Below, in pieces: positions 608 to 20,085 of a DNA stretch of 64,000 nucleotides. The notes under the pieces are model-generated. The model ran no database searches and had not been told where the DNA came from. It saw nothing but the letters and a program-made list of their open reading frames with translations. The position numbers and the translations under genes are program-made. Source of the stretch: Sanguibacter hominis ATCC BAA-789 (lineage in GTDB: Bacteria; Actinomycetota; Actinomycetes; Actinomycetales; Cellulomonadaceae); contig NZ_JAAXOW010000002.1 in the NCBI RefSeq assembly GCF_012396185.1, positions 1 to 64,000 on the forward strand. The letters are read 5' to 3'. Position 1 is the stretch's first letter. The number at the start of each line of letters is the position of its first letter.

Positions 608-2119
608 ATGGACCTCACCCGACTCTCGGCAGCCAAGCTGGCCGAGCTTCTCGCCGCGGGCACCGTGACCTCTGTCGAGGTCACGCAGGCCCACCTCGAC
701 CGGATCGACGCCGTCGACGGCCAGGTGCACGCCTTCCTCCACATCTCTGACGCCGAAGCGCTCAAGACCGCTGCGGACGTCGACGCACGCCGGGCTGCGG
801 GGGAGAGGCTCCACCCCCTCGCAGGCGTGCCGATCGCCATCAAGGACGTCGTCGTCACCGAGGGGCTCCCCACCACTGCTGGATCCAAGATCCTCGACGG
901 CTGGATCCCGCCCTACGACGCGACCCTCATCGAGCGGATCAAGGACGCAGGGCTGCCCATCCTCGGGAAGACCAACATGGACGAGTTTGCGATGGGGTCG
1001 TCGACGGAGCACTCCGCCTACGGCAACACGCACAACCCCTGGGACCTCGACCGGATCCCCGGCGGCTCCGGCGGTGGTTCCGCCGCCGCCGTCGCCGCAT
1101 TCGAGGCGCCCCTCGCGATCGGCACCGACACCGGTGGTTCCATCCGGCAGCCGGGCGCAGTCACCGGCACCGTCGGGGTGAAGCCCACGTACGGCTCCGT
1201 CTCGCGCTACGGCCTCATCGCCATGGCATCGTCGCTCGACCAGGCAGGACCGGTCACGCGGACCGTCCTCGACTCCGCTCTGCTCCACGAGCTCATCGGC
1301 GGTCACGACCCGCGCGACTCGACGTCGATCGACGAGCCGCTCCCGAACCTCGTGGAGGCCGCGCGCCAGGGTGCGCTCGGCGATCTGACCGGGCTGCGCG
1401 TCGGCATCGTCAAGGAGCTCTCCGGCGATGGATACCAGGACGGGGTGAGCGCCCGCTTCGCTGAGTCGGTCGCTCTCCTCGAGAAGGCGGGTGCGACCGT
1501 CGTCGAGGTCTCCTGCCCCCACTTCGAGTACGCGCTCGCCGCGTACTACCTGATCATGCCGTCCGAGGCGTCCAGCAACCTCGCCAAGTTCGACGGCATG
1601 CGTTTCGGGCTTCGTGTCGAACCCACCGACGGCCCTGCGACCGCGGAGCGCGTCATGTCCGCGACCCGCGGCGCCGGCTTCGGCGACGAGGTCAAGCGCC
1701 GCGTCATCCTCGGCACCTACGCTCTGTCGGCCGGGTACTACGACGCCTACTACGGCAGCGCGCAGAAGGTCCGTACGCTCATCCAGCGTGACTTCGACTC
1801 CGCGTTCGAGGTCGCCGACGTGCTCGTCTCGCCGACCGCCCCGACGACGGCCTTCAAGCTGGGGGAGAAGCTCGACGACCCGCTCGCGATGTACCTCAAC
1901 GACGTCGCCACGATCCCCGCGAACCTCGCAGGCATCCCCGGGATCTCCGTCCCGAACGGCCTGTCTGACGACGGGCTTCCCGTCGGCTTCCAGATCCTCG
2001 CGCCGGCGAAGGCCGACGATCGTCTGTACCGCGTCGGTGCGGCCCTCGAGGCCGCACTCGAGAACACGTGGGGTGCGCCGCTGATCGCGCAGGCCCCGGA
2101 ACTGGAGATCGCACGATGA
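608..2119 (+). CDS. gatA: Asp/Glu-tRNA amidotransferase subunit A
   Basis: GatA is the glutaminase subunit. It releases ammonia from glutamine and channels it to GatB. It is an amidase-signature enzyme of about 503 residues. The Ser-cisSer-Lys triad is visible: Lys about 79 in GVPIAIKDV, cis-Ser about 154 in [11 protein letters not shown], and the nucleophile Ser about 178 in [11 protein letters not shown] prefer ATG 608 because GGAGAAG lies 7 bases upstream; GTG at 602, overlapping the gatC stop, is the alternative. The stop overlaps the gatB start (ATGA), implying translational coupling. Confidence 0.97.
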
Positions 2120-8973: not shown

Positions 8974-9002
8974 GTGACATCAGAGAGGGGGAGGCGTAGT
9001 GT
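8974..9002 (+). promoter_or_regulatory. ilvBNC promoter
   Basis: GTGACA (8974-8979), a 17-base spacer and TAGTGT (8997-9002) make a near-consensus housekeeping promoter. The -10 box ends 7 bases before GTG 9010, so the leader peptide would be translated from the very 5' end of the RNA. Confidence 0.7.
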
Positions 9003-9009
9003 GTCGAGC

Positions 9010-9051
9010 GTGCAGACGATCCTCGTAGTACTTCCCGGGCGCGCAGCCTGA
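9010..9051 (+). CDS. ilvB attenuator leader peptide
   Basis: A 13-codon reading frame, MQTILVVLPGRAA, whose middle is five branched-chain codons in a row (ATC CTC GTA GTA CTT). GTA is rare in this genome, which would sharpen the response to low Val-tRNA. A GTG at 9001 in the same frame would give 16 residues, but GTG 9010 sits 7 bases after the -10 box and suits a leaderless start. It precedes a hairpin and T-run before ilvB, the classical attenuation layout described for ilvB in actinobacteria such as Corynebacterium. The peptide itself has no function beyond ribosome positioning. Confidence 0.75.
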   Translation: MQTILVVLPGRAA

Positions 9052-9123
9052 CACCGGACACCACCGGTCGCAGCCGCGCGCTCACCCCTCGAACGGCCCC
9101 ACCCGGGCGCGAGGGGCTTTTTT
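9052..9123 (+). promoter_or_regulatory. ilvBNC transcription attenuator
   Basis: After the leader stop, ACCGG/CCGGT (9053-9068) can form a small hairpin, and GGGCGCGC of the leader (9037-9044) can pair with GCGCGCTC (9076-9083). The terminator stem is CCCCTCG (9085-9091) with CGAGGGG (9110-9116), followed by C and six T. GCCCC/GGGGC inside is an alternative pairing. A ribosome stalled at the ILVVL codons would change which arms pair. The exact switch needs folding. Confidence 0.7.
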
Positions 9124-9203: not shown

Positions 9204-11069
9204 ATGGTCCAGGGTTCCCACCCGACGCCGCAGGCGGCGGGAGCAGTCCCGAAGCCCGCGCCCTCACCGACGCAGGCCGCCGGCGCCCACGAGCGCTCGA
9301 GGACGAGCGTCCCAGCGCGCGAGGAGATGACCGGCGCCGAGGCGATCGTCCGGTCGCTCGAGGCCGCGGGAGCGGACACTGTGTTCGGGATCCCGGGCGG
9401 GGCGATCCTCCCGACCTACGACCCGCTCATGGACTCGACCAAGCTGCGTCACATCCTCGTGCGGCACGAGCAGGGCGGCGGTCACGCGGCCCAGGGCTAC
9501 GCGTACACCTCGGGCAAGGTGGGCGTCTGCATGGCGACCTCGGGCCCGGGCGCCACGAACCTCGTCACCCCGATCGCCGACGCCAACATGGACTCCGTGC
9601 CTCTCGTCGCGATCACGGGCCAGGTCGGAGCGAGCTTCATCGGGACGGACGCGTTCCAGGAAGCCGACATCGTCGGCATCACGATGCCCGTCTCGAAGCA
9701 CAACTTCCTCGTCACCAACCCCGACGACATCCCGCGCACGATCGCCGAGGCGTTCCACATCGCGCGCACCGGCCGTCCCGGACCCGTCCTCGTCGACATC
9801 GCCAAGTCCGCGATGCAGTCCCGGACCATGTTCGAGTGGCCCACCGAGCTCTCCCTGCCTGGGTACCACCCGGTCACCAAGCCCCACACGAAGCAGATCC
9901 GCGAGGCCGCGAAGCTGCTCGCGACCGCGCGCAGGCCCGTCCTGTACGTCGGCGGCGGCGCGATCCGCTCCGGTGCGTCCGCCGAGCTGCGCAAGCTCGT
10001 CGACCTGTCAGGCGCGGCTGTGGTCACGACCCTCATGGCGCGCGGTGCCGTCCCTGACTCGCACCCCCAGAACCTCGGCATGCCCGGCATGCACGGCACC
10101 GTGCCGGCAGTCGCCGCGCTGCAGCGGGCCGACCTCGTCGTCGCGCTCGGTGCACGGTTCGACGACCGCGTCACCGGCAAGCTCTCGTCCTTCGCTCCCG
10201 GCGCCCAGATCATCCACGCGGACATCGACCCCGCGGAGATCGGCAAGAACCGCGTCGTCGACGTCCCGATCGTCGGCGATCTCAAGGAGATCATCGCGGA
10301 CCTCGTCCCCGAGCTCGCCGCCGAGCACGAGAAGCACGGCAAGCCAGACCTCGAGGCCTGGTGGCGCCAGCTCGACGACTGGCGCGAGACGTACCCGCTC
10401 GGATACACGCCGACCGACGACGGCGCCCTGGCGCCGCAGGCCGTCATCGCCAAGCTCGGCGAGATGGCCGGCCCGGAGGCTGTCTACGTCGCGGGCGTGG
10501 GCCAGCACCAGATGTGGGCCGCGCAGTTCATCCGCTACGAGCGCCCCAACGCCTGGCTCAACTCCGGCGGCCTGGGCACGATGGGCTTCTCGATCCCCGC
10601 CGCGATGGGCGCCAAGGTCGGCGACCCGGACCGCGAGGTGTGGGCGATCGACGGCGACGGCTGCTTCCAGATGACCAACCAGGAGCTCGCGACCTGCACG
10701 ATCAACGAGATCCCGATCAAGGTCGCGCTCATCAACAACTCGTCGCTCGGCATGGTCCGCCAGTGGCAGACCCTCTTCTACGAGAAGCGCTACTCCAACA
10801 CCGACCTGCACACCGGGTCGGGCACGGCGCGAGTGCCGGACTTCGTCAAGCTCGCGGACGCGTACGGGTGCGTCGGCATCCGCGTCGAGCACGCCTCCGA
10901 GGTCGAGGCCGCGATCAAGCGCGCCAGGGAGATCGACGACCAGCCGGTCGTCATCGACTTCAACGTCTCACGCGACGCGATGGTCTGGCCGATGGTCGCC
11001 GCAGGCGTGAGCAACGACGACATCCAGTACGCGCGCGGCATCTCGCCCGCGTGGGACCGTGAAGACTGA
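9204..11069 (+). CDS. ilvB: acetolactate synthase large subunit
   Basis: ThDP-dependent acetohydroxyacid synthase: condenses two pyruvates, or pyruvate with 2-oxobutyrate, as the first common step to Val/Leu and Ile. The 621 residues include a Pro/Ala-rich 40-residue N-terminal extension before [17 protein letters not shown]. The catalytic Glu is about residue 89 in [28 protein letters not shown] precedes it. The ThDP-Mg motif is [12 protein letters not shown] with [12 protein letters not shown] downstream. GGGAG precedes ATG 9204 at good spacing. It is followed by ilvN at 15 bases and then ilvC, and is controlled by the attenuator just upstream. Confidence 0.97.
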
Positions 11070-16245: not shown

Positions 16246-17055
16246 TCAGCGGACCTTCGCGACCGTGGACTTGTACGCCGGGGCGTACTTCGCCTTGGTG
16301 ACCTTGAAGTAGAGCTTGTCGCCCTTGCGCAGGTTCTTGACGCTGAACTTCGCAGACGAGCGGTAGCCGTCCTCGCGAAGCTTCTTGGTCGAGTGCTTGA
16401 CGTACTTCTTCTTGCCCTTCTTCTTCACGTAGAGGGTCGCCTTGGCGCCACGCTGGTAGTCGGGCGCGCGGAGCGTGAGCTTCGCGGTCTGACCCGCACG
16501 CCAGTACGAGGAGGCGAGGCTGGTCTCGCTGACGGAGACCTTCTTGTTGGCGTAGACCGTGAACTTCGCGGTGGCCATCTTGGTGCTCTCGACGTACTGG
16601 CTTCCGACGTAGGCCAACTGCTTGACCGGGAACGTCACCGAGTAGACGCCGGGGGATGTCGAGGCCGAGACGCGGATCGTCGCTGTGATCTTCGAGCCGG
16701 GGACCGGGTTCGAATCCTTGGCCACGTTGACCACGTAGGGCTTGTTGGGGCTGGCGACTCGTGAGCTCACGAGCTTCAGCTCGGGGTAGCTCGCCAAGTA
16801 CCAGAGGCCGACGCCGTCGCCGTTCTTGTCCGAGTAGCCGCCGTCGCTAGCGGTGCCGGAGAACGTGGCGGTGATCTTGAAGCTCTTCCCGCCGGACGTC
16901 GAGGAGGTCGTGACCTTGCCGGGGTTGCTGGCGATGGTCACCGCGTGGGTGCGCGCGACCGCAGCCTGCGCCGGGGTGGTCGCCACGAGCGCGGCGCCCG
17001 CGGTGAGCGCAAGCGTGGTCCCGAGCGCGAAGGCGCGCCTAGTCAGTGTCTTCAT
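16246..17055 (-). CDS. secreted lysine-rich protein of unknown function
   Basis: A 269-residue exported protein that I cannot assign. The N terminus MKTLTRRAFALGTTLALTAG resembles a twin-arginine signal (TRRAFAL) with a hydrophobic core and an AQA-type cleavage site near residue 31. The mature protein is rich in Ser, Thr, Lys and Tyr and looks all-beta (FKITATFSGTAS, TARIRVSAS-type strands), ending in a lysine-rich segment (YVKKKGKKKYVKHSTKK). ATG 17055 has AGGGAC upstream. Its 5' region shares blocks with that of the next gene at 17311-18093, so both are probably expressed together or respond to one signal. Confidence 0.8.
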   Translation of the reverse strand: MKTLTRRAFALGTTLALTAGAALVATTPAQAAVARTHAVTIASNPGKVTTSSTSGGKSFKITATFSGTASDGGYSDKNGDGVGLWYLASYPELKLVSSRVASPNKPYVVNVAKDSNPVPGSKITATIRVSASTSPGVYSVTFPVKQLAYVGSQYVESTKMATAKFTVYANKKVSVSETSLASSYWRAGQTAKLTLRAPDYQRGAKATLYVKKKGKKKYVKHSTKKLREDGYRSSAKFSVKNLRKGDKLYFKVTKAKYAPAYKSTVAKVR

Positions 17056-17310: not shown

Positions 17311-18093
17311 CTATGCGGTCACCGTGACGGTGATCCACGACGAGTGGACGTAGTCGTCGAACGCGTAGCCGGGGGTGTAGAACGCCTTGAACTTGTGGGT
17401 TCCCACCGGAAGCTTCTCAGCGACGCGGGCGAGCCAGGACGAGGAGAACGAGAACTTCCCGTCCTGGACGCCCGTCATCGTGATGTAGTCGGGCGAGGAA
17501 GCCCCGCCCTTGGTCTTGCCGTTGCGGTAGATGTCGACGTAGCCCTTCTTGGCGGGCTTGCCCTTGTACTTGACCGTGCCCGTGAGCTTCTGACCCTCGG
17601 CTGCGACCGGGTCGAGGTTGAAGCCGTACGGGTCAGACTTGGAGACCGTGAACTCCGCCTTCGTGACCTTGAGCGCGGAGTTGTGGACCGTGATCTTGAC
17701 GGACTTCGACGCCTTGCCGTACTTCGCCGTGATCTTGTGCTTGCCGACCTTGAGGCTCGACTTCAGGCGGATCGTGGCCTTGCCCTTCTTGAGCTTGACC
17801 GTCTTGATCTTCTTCTTGCCGTCGAAGAAGGTGACCTTTCCGCTTGCAGCCTTGCTGCCCTTCTTCACGGCGACCGTGATCTTCGGGCCGGTCTGGCCGT
17901 GGTGGAAGGACTTGGCGGACGCCTTGATCGCGATCTTCGTGCCAGCCTTGGCGGTCGCGACCTTGGCCGTCGCAACGGCGGTCGCGGGCGCTGCCGTGCT
18001 GACGGGGGCGGCCGAGGCGGTGGCGGGCAGTGCGCCGACCGAGAGAGCAAGGGCTGCTGCGACCGTGACGGCGCGCTTTGCGAGATTCTTCAT
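17311..18093 (-). CDS. secreted Ig-like repeat protein
   Basis: A 260-residue exported protein. ATG 18093 gives MKNLAKRAVTVAAALALSVGALPATASA, an ordinary Sec signal with an ASA-type site near residue 28. AGGGA precedes it by 6 bases; an upstream extension of the frame has no ribosome site. After an Ala/Thr-rich linker, residues about 55-145 form a bacterial Ig-like domain (KITVAVKKG..GKVTFFDGKKKI..TIRLKSSLKVGKHKITAKY). A second beta domain follows (LTGTVKYKGKPAKKGYVDIYRNG). Likely a surface or extracellular protein; the partner is unknown. The lysine codons make the gene less GC-rich than its neighbours. Confidence 0.82.
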   Translation of the reverse strand: MKNLAKRAVTVAAALALSVGALPATASAAPVSTAAPATAVATAKVATAKAGTKIAIKASAKSFHHGQTGPKITVAVKKGSKAASGKVTFFDGKKKIKTVKLKKGKATIRLKSSLKVGKHKITAKYGKASKSVKITVHNSALKVTKAEFTVSKSDPYGFNLDPVAAEGQKLTGTVKYKGKPAKKGYVDIYRNGKTKGGASSPDYITMTGVQDGKFSFSSSWLARVAEKLPVGTHKFKAFYTPGYAFDDYVHSSWITVTVTA

Positions 18094-18258
18094 GGGTTCC
18101 CTGTCGTTCTGCGGGGCTTGCCCCGGGTGTGCTGGGGGGTAGGTGCGTCTCCTGCCCGTCGCGAAGATACTGTTCATGCGTTCGATGCGCGCGTCGAGAA
18201 CCGGCAAACCGGACAGTGTGCCCGGAAAACGGCCTCCGCTCTCAGGATTCGAGACTCA
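18094..18258 (-). promoter_or_regulatory. conserved upstream element, copy 2
   Basis: The second copy of the blocks described at 17056-17225: CTCCTGCC..CGAAGA (18149-18167), GATGCGCGCG (18184-18193) and CTCAGGATTCGAGACTCA (18241-18258), plus CCCTGTCGTT and a GCGGGGC..GCCCCG hairpin beside the start codon. Confidence 0.5.
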
Positions 18259-18333
18259 CGGGATGCTGCCCGACGCTCGCGGGACGGCGTTCCGGGATGC
18301 GACCGGTGCTCTCGAGCGGGCAGGTGCGTGTGG

Positions 18334-18339
18334 CATCAT
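18334..18339 (+). promoter_or_regulatory. -10 box of the cimA leader
   Basis: CATCAT preceded by TGG forms an extended -10. It ends 6 bases before GTG 18346, the leaderless spacing seen throughout the window. Confidence 0.5.
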
Positions 18340-18345
18340 GGCCGT

Positions 18346-18375
18346 GTGATCGACCTCACCGTGATTATCGACTAG
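18346..18375 (+). CDS. cimA attenuator leader peptide
   Basis: A nine-codon frame, MIDLTVIID, then TAG. Five of its codons are Ile, Leu or Val, including the run GTG ATT ATC near the end; ATT is a rare codon in this genome. It starts 6 bases after a -10 box and is followed at once by a hairpin and a terminator upstream of cimA, so it reads as a control peptide for attenuation by isoleucine or branched-chain tRNA charging. It has no similarity to any protein and is too short to be judged except by context. Confidence 0.72.
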   Translation: MIDLTVIID

Positions 18376-18434
18376 CGCGCCCGGCACCACCTATGCCGAG
18401 CGCGCTGACCCTCCGTCCTCCGGGGGGTCTTTTT
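18374..18434 (+). promoter_or_regulatory. cimA transcription attenuator
   Basis: The first hairpin, AGCGCGC (18374-18380) with GCGCGCT (18400-18406), is extended by CGGCA/TGCCG and overlaps the leader stop codon. It is followed without gap by the terminator GACCCTCCG / CCGGGGGGTC (18407-18429) and TTTTT. Leader translation must interfere with the first hairpin, so ribosome position can decide whether the terminator forms. Confidence 0.72.
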
Positions 18435-18495
18435 GTTGGACCGCTGCAGGTCGGTGCCTCGCGCGGCGCCGGACTCGATGTGAAGAGAGCGACCG

Positions 18496-20085
18496 ATGAG
18501 CTTCCACGTGTACGACACCACCCTGCGCGACGGCGCGCAGCAGGAAGGCATGAACCTGTCCGTGACGGACAAGCTCGCGATCGCGCCCCTGCTCGACGAG
18601 CTGGGCGTCGGCTTCATCGAGGGCGGCTGGCCCGGCGCGGTTCCCAAGGACACCGAGTTCTTCGCACGTGCGGCGAGCGAGCTGAAGCTCAAGAATGCTG
18701 TGCTGGCCGCGTTCGGCGCGACGCGAAAGGTCGGCGTCAAGGTCGAGGAGGACCCCCAGGTCCGCGCGCTGCTCGACTCCCAGGCGCCCGTCGTCACGCT
18801 CGTCGCGAAGTCTGACGTGCGCCACGTCGAGCGTGCCCTGCGGACGACCGCCGAGGAGAACCTCGCGATGATCGAAGACACGGTCCGGTTCCTCACGAGC
18901 GAGGGGCGCCGGGTCTTCGTCGACGCCGAGCACTTCTTCGACGGCTACCGCTTCGACCGGACGGCCTCCCTCGCGGCTGTCGCAGCCGCCTTCGAGGCGG
19001 GCGCCGAGGTCGTCGCGCTGTGCGACACGAACGGCGGGATGCTACCCGGCTGGGTCGGCGAGATCGTCGCGGACGTCCGTGACGCCGTCGGGCTGGACCA
19101 TCGGCTAGGGGTGCACGCCCACAACGACACGGGTTGCGCCGTCGCGAACTCGCTCGCCGCGGTCGAGGCCGGCGCGAGCCACGTCCAGGGCACCGTCAAC
19201 GGCTACGGCGAGCGCACCGGCAACGCCGACCTCATCACGGTCGTCGCGAACCTCGAGCTCAAGCACGGGCGCGCCCTGCTCGCCGGGCGCGGTCTCGCGG
19301 AGGCGAGCCGCATCGCGCACGCCATCTCCGAGCTGACCAACATCTCGCCCTACGCGCGCCAGCCGTACGTCGGCGCGAGCGCCTTCGCTCACAAGGCTGG
19401 CCTGCACGCGAGCGCGATCAAGGTGGACCCGGACCTCTATCAGCACATCGACCCGCGCGCCGTCGGCAACGACATGCGGATGCTCATCTCCGACATGGCC
19501 GGTCGCGCATCGATCGAGCTCAAGGGTCGCGAGCTCGGCTTCGACCTCGCCGGTCAGAGCGACGTCCTATCCCGGGTGACGAACCGCATCAAGGACGCCG
19601 AGGCGAACGGCTACACGTACGACGCCGCGGACGCGTCGTTCGAGCTCATCCTCCGCGAGGAGGTCACCGGCGAGCGTCCCGCGTACTTCACGGTCGAGTC
19701 GTGGCGCTCGATCGTCGAGCGCACCGGCAGCCGCGGCACCGAGACTGCCTCCGAGGCGACCGTGAAGCTCCGTGCCGGAGGCGAGCGCATCGTCTCGACG
19801 GGCGAAGGCAACGGTCCCGTGAACGCGCTCGACCAGGCGCTGCGTCAGGCGCTCGGCCGTGTCTACCCGGAGATCGAGAAGTTCGAGCTGATCGACTTCA
19901 AGGTGCGCATCCTCGACCAGACGCACGGCACCGACGCGATCACGCGCGTCCTCATCGAGACGACGGACGGCGAGCGGTCGTGGTCGACCGTCGGCGTCGG
20001 TCCGAACCTGCTCGAGGCGTCCTGGGAGGCGCTCACGGACTCCGCGATCTTCGGCTTGCTCAAGTCGGGCGTGAGCCCGCGCTGA
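18496..20085 (+). CDS. cimA: (R)-citramalate synthase
   Basis: Condenses pyruvate and acetyl-CoA to citramalate, the entry to threonine-independent isoleucine synthesis. It has 529 residues, typical of the long CimA subfamily rather than LeuA. The HMGL-like TIM barrel begins FHVYDTTLRDGAQQEGMNLS; metal-binding HAHNDTGCAVANSLAAVEAG and QGTVNGYGERTGNADL follow. The C-terminal LeuA-type regulatory domain spans about residues 380-529. LeuCD (46174-48332) and LeuB (13908) can carry the following steps. Expression appears to be governed by the attenuator just upstream. Confidence 0.95.
   Translation: MSFHVYDTTLRDGAQQEGMNLSVTDKLAIAPLLDELGVGFIEGGWPGAVPKDTEFFARAASELKLKNAVLAAFGATRKVGVKVEEDPQVRALLDSQAPVVTLVAKSDVRHVERALRTTAEENLAMIEDTVRFLTSEGRRVFVDAEHFFDGYRFDRTASLAAVAAAFEAGAEVVALCDTNGGMLPGWVGEIVADVRDAVGLDHRLGVHAHNDTGCAVANSLAAVEAGASHVQGTVNGYGERTGNADLITVVANLELKHGRALLAGRGLAEASRIAHAISELTNISPYARQPYVGASAFAHKAGLHASAIKVDPDLYQHIDPRAVGNDMRMLISDMAGRASIELKGRELGFDLAGQSDVLSRVTNRIKDAEANGYTYDAADASFELILREEVTGERPAYFTVESWRSIVERTGSRGTETASEATVKLRAGGERIVSTGEGNGPVNALDQALRQALGRVYPEIEKFELIDFKVRILDQTHGTDAITRVLIETTDGERSWSTVGVGPNLLEASWEALTDSAIFGLLKSGVSPR

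Follow-up and report, generated by a model that had tools for sequence, protein, structure and literature searches.

A putative isoleucine-responsive transcription attenuator upstream of the citramalate synthase gene cimA in Actinomycetes

Background

In the trp, his and ilv attenuators of enterobacteria, the position of the ribosome on control codons decides termination, and the antiterminator and terminator helices overlap. Branched-chain leaders are also known in actinobacteria, where they have been described for ilvB, leuS and leuA (PMC1262725, PMC10272879, PMC11857589, PMC8079986). Closest to the element analyzed here are those of Corynebacterium ilvBNC and ilvB-II, in which a leaderless or nearly leaderless upstream open reading frame (uORF) with branched-chain codons precedes a hairpin and an adjacent intrinsic terminator; as set out in PMC11857589 and PMC10272879, these leaders serve ilvB, and their antiterminator either shares three boundary bases with the terminator or uses the P1 loop. 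The Streptomyces ilvL and leuL leaders are likewise reported as leaderless leader peptides with a hairpin and a U-run (PMC8079986, PMC1262725), the leuA leader being given in PMC8079986 as one without a typical terminator. In the LEU element of leuA, presented in PMC1262725 as a pseudoknot with Leu codons, a control-codon uORF lies upstream of a synthase homologous to citramalate synthase. The Streptomyces ilvB and leuA leaders were thus reported earlier and their mechanism stayed unclear: according to experiments cited in PMC1262725, mutating the control codons of the ilvB leader of S. coelicolor had no effect, and mutations of this type in leuA gave results at odds with classical attenuation.

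The cimA gene encodes citramalate synthase, the entry enzyme of an isoleucine route found in many actinobacteria. An earlier note on a 64,000-nt stretch of the Sanguibacter hominis ATCC BAA-789 genome (the window, meaning the whole stretch that was analyzed) had proposed that its cimA is controlled by an attenuator with an isoleucine-type leader peptide, while knowing of no established case of cimA attenuation. Searches of open PMC text for citramalate or cimA and, by titles and the beginnings of abstracts, for actinobacterial attenuation agree with the latter statement, with no cimA case among the matches listed; Lopatovskaya 2010 (Mol Biol 44:128) could contain one. No cimA leader is among the eight leader peptides given for S. 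lividans in PMC8079986, the main text of which has no hit for either citramalate or cimA, and the main texts of PMC4833913, PMC2965389 and PMC8269248 have none for citramalate.

Results

The region upstream of cimA in the window yields the features collected in Table 1. Read directly, the leader codons are GTG ATC GAC CTC ACC GTG ATT ATC GAC TAG, and they confirm the nonapeptide and the GTG ATT ATC run of the earlier note. Its other structural claims were recovered as well: a hairpin across the leader stop by folding, a terminator with TTTTT by folding and a terminator scan, and a citramalate synthase gene downstream by homology. The span it had assigned to the element, 18334-18434, fits the boundaries found here. 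Between 18346 and 18434 the RNA folds at -42.4 kcal/mol (z = -5.45), a stability equalled by none of 200 dinucleotide shuffles, and the terminator scan of 17800-18800 returns three sites, which overlap one another, where shuffled sequence gives 0.8 on average (sd 0.9); a sigma-70 promoter scan called no promoter. The start of cimA lies 61 nt past the terminator end, and the GTTG that directly follows the U-run (18435-18438) is kept in most leaders of the family.

Table 1. Coordinates of the cimA and ilvB leader features in the window.
Feature	Position	Strand	Basis or remark
-10-like region, TGTGGCATCAT	18329..18339	+	read from sequence; no -35 assigned
-10-like hexamer CATCAT	18334-18339	+	6 nt before GTG of leader frame
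Putative leaderless uORF / leader peptide MIDLTVIID	18346..18375	+	GTG start, TAG stop
Putative control codon ATT	18364-18366	+	leader peptide frame
Putative control codon ATC	18367-18369	+	leader peptide frame
Leader stop TAG	18373-18375	+	overlaps hairpin 1 base
Hairpin 1, proposed antiterminator	18374..18406	+	fold; compensatory changes; begins within stop codon
Intrinsic terminator	18407..18434	+	hairpin 18407-18429 and TTTTT 18430-18434; no linker to hairpin 1
cimA, citramalate synthase, proposed regulated gene	18496..20085	+	TIGR00977, 624.7 bits, cut-off 450
ilvB leader, related design	8997..9123	+	fold z -3.82, 0/200 shuffles; hairpin and terminator ending TTTTTT
ilvB leader box TAGTGT	8997-9002	+	sequence
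ilvB leader uORF, MQTILVVLPGRAA	GTG 9010 to TGA 9051	+	by eye
ilvB	9327-11024	+	homology match

At the site, an Rfam search at gathering scores found no match to the T-box or any other RNA family; an anti-hemB match from a search admitting E values up to 1 (17.4 bits, gathering score 49.5, E 0.11) was taken as chance. The Leu codon run of the LEU element is absent from the window leader, which has Ile codons in its place, and the cimA element has a terminator where the LEU element is described as a pseudoknot. The genome of the window holds a threonine deaminase as well (TIGR01127, 420.7 bits, cut-off 378.75), a second entry to isoleucine, and hence cimA need not be the sole one. Between ilvE and cimA this genome carries two reverse-strand frames of secreted-protein-like character (16246-17055 and 17311-18207).

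Conservation was assessed in a set of relatives comprising the best 80 cimA loci from a genome scan. The same element occurs within 900 nt upstream of cimA in 76 of the 80, and these same 76 loci are recovered by a covariance model (R1) built from 64 of their leader sequences (Ile leaders of the family set). A chance origin of the element can be dismissed on account of this conservation. Where the element is absent, the contig ends within 60 nt (L010, L067 and L072) or, in Sanguibacter suaedae (L013), ilvE ends 88 nt before cimA. In an alignment of the 64 distinct leaders (A1), 96.6 % of the cells pair, and changes on both sides are seen in 8 of the 18 pairs, a number reached in 1 of 500 shuffles. 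Neither any slid version nor any of 500 shuffles equalled the covariation score of A1; for one of the five covariation measures, that of further pair types, 57 of 500 shuffles did equal it. Compensatory changes in hairpin 1 and the terminator were also seen on a second alignment, itself fitted to the structure. When the stem was anchored from both ends by a procedure independent of any aligner, 283 of the 330 cells at positions 6-11 were paired (shuffle mean 215, maximum 237). In hairpin 1, the outermost four base pairs (A1 columns 51-54 with 81-84) are invariant in the 64 family sequences, although any strong pairs would serve. At L061, the leader model has an additional match in inverted orientation at the contig end (32-114, reverse strand), which is probably an assembly artefact.

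The reading frame of the leader has independent support in the 77 leaders formed by the 76 of the relatives and that of the window. A TRTGnCAnnnT box is present in 71 of the 77, and in all 71 a GTG or ATG in frame with the stop lies 6-7 nt beyond this -10 box, a distance typical of leaderless starts, which suggests leaderless translation. Counting back from the hairpin base, Ile occupies codon -3, codon -2 or both in 77/77 leaders (63 at -3 and 72 at -2), Leu replacing it at -2 in five. Of the 63 Ile codons at -3, 49 are ATT, a codon that makes up 7 of the 1663 Ile codons of the cimA genes at these loci. All but two of the 77 leaders have TAG as the stop at the hairpin base; among the 36 cimA genes in which the stop was reached, 34 end in TGA and two in TAG. 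At three loci of family f15 (L122, L127 and L131) the leader no longer has this TAG and its frame continues into the hairpin, with the stop located by eye. The peptides, in turn, range from 8 to at least 18 residues, their N-termini are unrelated and their ends mostly follow the pattern (L/V/I)-I-(I/L)-x-stop. Given such variation in length and N-terminal sequence, what is conserved appears to be the Ile codons and their place rather than the peptide. The earlier note would have been refuted by a lack of conservation in close relatives, and its proposal passes this check: the Ile codons, both hairpins and the terminator are kept at the level of family, order and class, as well as in three cimA genes beyond the class. 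The rest of the peptide sequence is not conserved.

The geometry of the element was measured on 145 cimA leaders, 4 of 149 having been set aside because they did not fold into two hairpins, with the frame taken as that richest in Ile codons. Under this choice of frame, 113 of the 145 leaders have their last Ile codon beginning 8 nt ahead of hairpin 1. The stop overlaps hairpin 1 in 133 (in 20 of them sitting deeper, in the 5' arm or the loop), and in the remaining 12 no more than 2 nt separate its end from the hairpin. The linker between hairpin 1 and the terminator measures 0 nt in 120 leaders, 1 nt in 23 and 2 nt in two; in ilvB leaders it is 0 nt in 20 of 22 and 3 nt in the other two. A first comparison set of other terminators was contaminated by further leaders and a second comprises just 12, including the ilvB leader of the window (linker of 0-1 nt in four, no upstream hairpin in three), so that the abutment is to be read as a strong regularity and not as a tested departure from a null expectation.

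Folding of free transcripts produces both hairpin 1 and the terminator in 76 of 76 leaders. The mean unpaired probability of the terminator 5' arm is 0.93 with the ribosome stalled, 0.76 in free RNA and 0.74 with the ribosome at the stop, and in transcripts ending before the terminator 3' arm, 123 of the 145 minimum-energy folds of stalled leaders leave the 5' arm without any pairs. With the ribosome footprint masked and the RNA truncated, no alternative pairing of the leader or hairpin 1 with a terminator arm stood out in the stalled state; a pairing of the hairpin 1 3' arm with GTTG, seen in some sequences with the ribosome at the stop, was rejected as too weak and irregular. The commonest boundary between the two hairpins, CGCGC|A|GACC (48 of 77 leaders), opposes A to A, so that the hairpin cannot extend by pairing there. 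The boundary trinucleotide shared by the two hairpins of the C. glutamicum 'fast' attenuator is absent from this boundary, and in the window one base at most could be shared, while the hairpin adjacency of that attenuator recurs here (0-1 nt in 143 of 145 leaders). The cimA element hence differs from Corynebacterium ilvBNC in its gene, in its Ile codons and in having, in most leaders, no bases common to both hairpins, just as it differs from the enterobacterial trp, his and ilv attenuators in that no overlapping antiterminator and terminator helices were found in cimA leaders. Since no bases are shared, hairpin 1 is not a textbook antiterminator, and we do not file the element as a classical member.

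The only R1 match in the S. hominis genome is the site in the window. Across the order, the model matches 169 of 396 genomes at E <= 0.01 (cimA is present in 212 of the 396), and cimA lies downstream in all 49 order loci inspected, which partly repeat the 80-locus set; another 20 weaker loci comprise 12 ilvB, five leuS, one cimA and two chance matches. Across the class, 242 of 394 genomes are matched, corresponding to 235 of 310 genomes with cimA and 7 of 84 without it, figures that count matches anywhere in the genome and hence include some ilvB or leuS leaders. Among 66 class loci inspected, the gene downstream is cimA in 46, ilvB in 10, leuS in three and a threonine deaminase-like ilvA in three, the remaining four being one locus without an assigned gene and three that look like chance. 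In the phylum, 54 of 346 genomes are matched at E <= 0.001, 13 of them within the class; the 20 loci fetched beyond the class comprise 14 ilvB, three cimA, two leuA and one unassigned, and the three cimA leaders among them end in 3-4 consecutive Ile codons (by eye). The loci inspected in order, class and phylum were hand-picked to span families and are not random samples. Altogether, 152 cimA, 36 ilvB, eight leuS, three ilvA and two leuA leaders were gathered, the cimA leaders of the wider genome set partly repeating the 80-locus set. Weak matches at L154, L159, L180, L181 and L188 were rejected as chance.

Some of the loci so retrieved are of interest in themselves. In one family (f36; L172, L175 and L176), a leader with a single Ile codon precedes a threonine deaminase-like ilvA, the other entry to isoleucine, and outside the class Leu control codons precede leuA (2-isopropylmalate synthase) at L253 and L269, in an arrangement unlike the LEU element. 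Two R1 matches, L257 and the Ile leader L164, have no assigned gene; the latter (1501-1607, reverse strand) is an Ile-rich leader (..VIIM-TAG) with two hairpins, at a locus without a cimA, ilvB, leuS or ilvA match, and the next small frame occupies 1120-1443.

The codons of these leaders were tallied from -5 to -1, in a frame set solely by the TAG at the hairpin base; repeats and leaders without such a TAG were left out, which retained 96 of 152 cimA, 24 of 36 ilvB, three of eight leuS, two of two leuA and two of three ilvA leaders. In cimA leaders, Ile takes up 190 of 480 codons (Leu 68, Val 36), and in ilvB leaders 13 of 120, Val reaching 45 and Leu 31. Leu makes up 7 of 15 codons in leuS leaders and 6 of 10 in leuA leaders, with no Ile in either, and the 10 codons of the ilvA leaders include two each of Ile, Leu, Met and Thr. 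Neither this frame nor that of the -10 box and start codon count depends on Ile content. The control codons thus tend to match the gene product, in the direction that tRNA sensing predicts, in a comparison limited by the few leuS, leuA and ilvA leaders and by R1 itself, which was trained on Ile leaders of the family, matches those by construction and leans to Ile-like codons elsewhere.

Related leaders also connect the element to described systems. The ilvB leader of the window (Table 1) is missed by the R1 search of its own genome, but elsewhere the model does find ilvB and leuS leaders, and one of these ilvB leaders (L184, genome G662) encodes MRTRILVLGKRVG, which is identical to the IlvL peptide of S. 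lividans given in PMC8079986. IlvL is listed there as leaderless in an RNA-seq paper, and R1 therefore detects a kind of element that has been seen by RNA-seq. The same genome carries a cimA leader as well (L167), and its family (f37) is, from the IlvL identity, probably Streptomyces.

The presence of the leader follows the position of ilvE. An ilvE gene lies upstream on the same strand in 61 of the 80 loci of the relatives; in 60 of them it is at least 300 nt away and the leader is present, the exception to both being the S. suaedae locus. We also read 20 cimA genes without an adjoining R1 match, 19 from genomes without any match and one from a genome (G297) that matches only at ilvB. The end of ilvE was found upstream in 16, and for all but one of the 16 it lay no further than about 230 nt from where the fetched stretch ends. 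As the leader is absent where ilvE is close and present where it is at least 300 nt away, the element seems to go with room for a separate cimA promoter.

Discussion

We interpret the element as an isoleucine-responsive, ribosome-mediated transcription attenuator of cimA, a reading to which we assign a probability of roughly three in four and under which cimA would probably be switched on solely when isoleucine runs short. The link to Ile-tRNA charging made in the earlier note is supported by the excess of ATT, the in-frame starts and the tendency of control codons to match the gene product. Building on the parts, conservation, covariation, codon choice and geometry established from the sequence, we infer a start site, a stalling event, a direction of response and a steric effect that would combine as follows. 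The transcript would start at or beside the GTG, and a ribosome would begin leaderless translation. With charged Ile-tRNA scarce, it would stall at ATT/ATC, its front edge just reaching the base of hairpin 1, which could then fold. Lying flush to the terminator, hairpin 1 would block the closing of the terminator stem inside the RNA polymerase exit channel, and cimA would be transcribed. With isoleucine plentiful, the ribosome would proceed to the stop at or inside hairpin 1 and melt it; the terminator would then close, and transcription would end near 18434. The position of the Ile codons, some 8 nt before hairpin 1, and of the stop, at or in it, is what leads us to expect that a stalled ribosome should spare hairpin 1 and a passing one should open it.

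A less certain step in this scheme is the ON state. A terminator stem closes within the exit channel of the polymerase, and its closure should therefore be hindered by a rigid helix lying directly against the 5' side of the stem; since both hairpins form in free folds and the 5' arm is left unsequestered, the ON state rests on this steric argument, which we put forward tentatively, as a possibility somewhat short of probable. Two other accounts bear on this step and are compatible with isoleucine-responsive attenuation as such. A classical antiterminator sharing bases with the terminator may have been missed, for instance one pairing leader codons with the terminator 5' arm in the manner of the C. 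glutamicum ilvBNC 'fast' type. The window fold does pair A18374 with T18406, the first terminator base could be drawn into an additional U-G pair, and adjacent hairpins sharing three bases are described in PMC11857589; the 5' arm left wholly unpaired in most stalled folds and a commonest boundary that cannot extend nevertheless make this account of mutually exclusive pairing, which opposes the steric step alone, an unlikely one. About equally doubtful is that hairpin 1 merely pauses the polymerase and synchronizes it with the ribosome, the true switch lying elsewhere. The strength of hairpin 1 and the invariance of its outer pairs, beyond what pairing needs, would suit a pause hairpin, but a fixed distance to the terminator would then be unneeded, and no other switch was found in free, stalled or at-stop folds.

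Two further explanations would do away with the sensing of tRNA charging altogether. The hairpins might simply set a low, constant level of cimA as an unregulated promoter-proximal terminator, the uORF being incidental. The formation of hairpin and terminator in all free folds fits this notion, as do the S. coelicolor ilvB codon mutants that stayed regulated according to the work cited in PMC1262725, a result that counts against the tRNA-sensing model. It seems improbable all the same, there being no obvious reason for such a terminator to keep Ile codons in every leader, the rare ATT, in-frame starts and codons that follow the product of the gene. Less probable still, and to our mind very much so, is a nascent-chain arrest peptide responding to free isoleucine or to a metabolite of the pathway; the conserved C-terminal end of the peptides would be in keeping with it, but their lengths and N-termini are at odds with an arrest sequence and there is no conservation beyond the sensing codons, while the like architecture carries Leu codons at leuS and leuA and Val, Leu and Ile codons at ilvB, as the sensing of tRNA charging predicts.

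A further possibility, which we would not yet call likely, is an old attenuator design shared by actinobacteria, in which a GC-clamped, flush hairpin acts without base competition and which has been reused for cimA, ilvB, leuS, ilvA and leuA mainly by changing control codons, with cimA as a widespread and so far unreported user. More immediately, the element is a likely point of control over isoleucine synthesis by way of citramalate across much of the class Actinomycetes, with Streptomyces probably among the genera concerned, and the leaders gathered here make an old puzzle testable, namely how ineffective codon mutations in ilvB can be squared with codon identities that tend to match the gene product. 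Abutting hairpins, if they do operate in the manner suggested, would offer a simple means of rendering a terminator conditional and might prove useful in engineering citramalate pathways. Finally, inverted repeats of the GTCC..GGAC kind are discernible by eye ahead of the -10 box at loci of Cellulomonas (for example L037 and L052) and likewise at the ilvB promoters of L153 and L156, and they are possibly a regulator site common to cimA and ilvB promoters.
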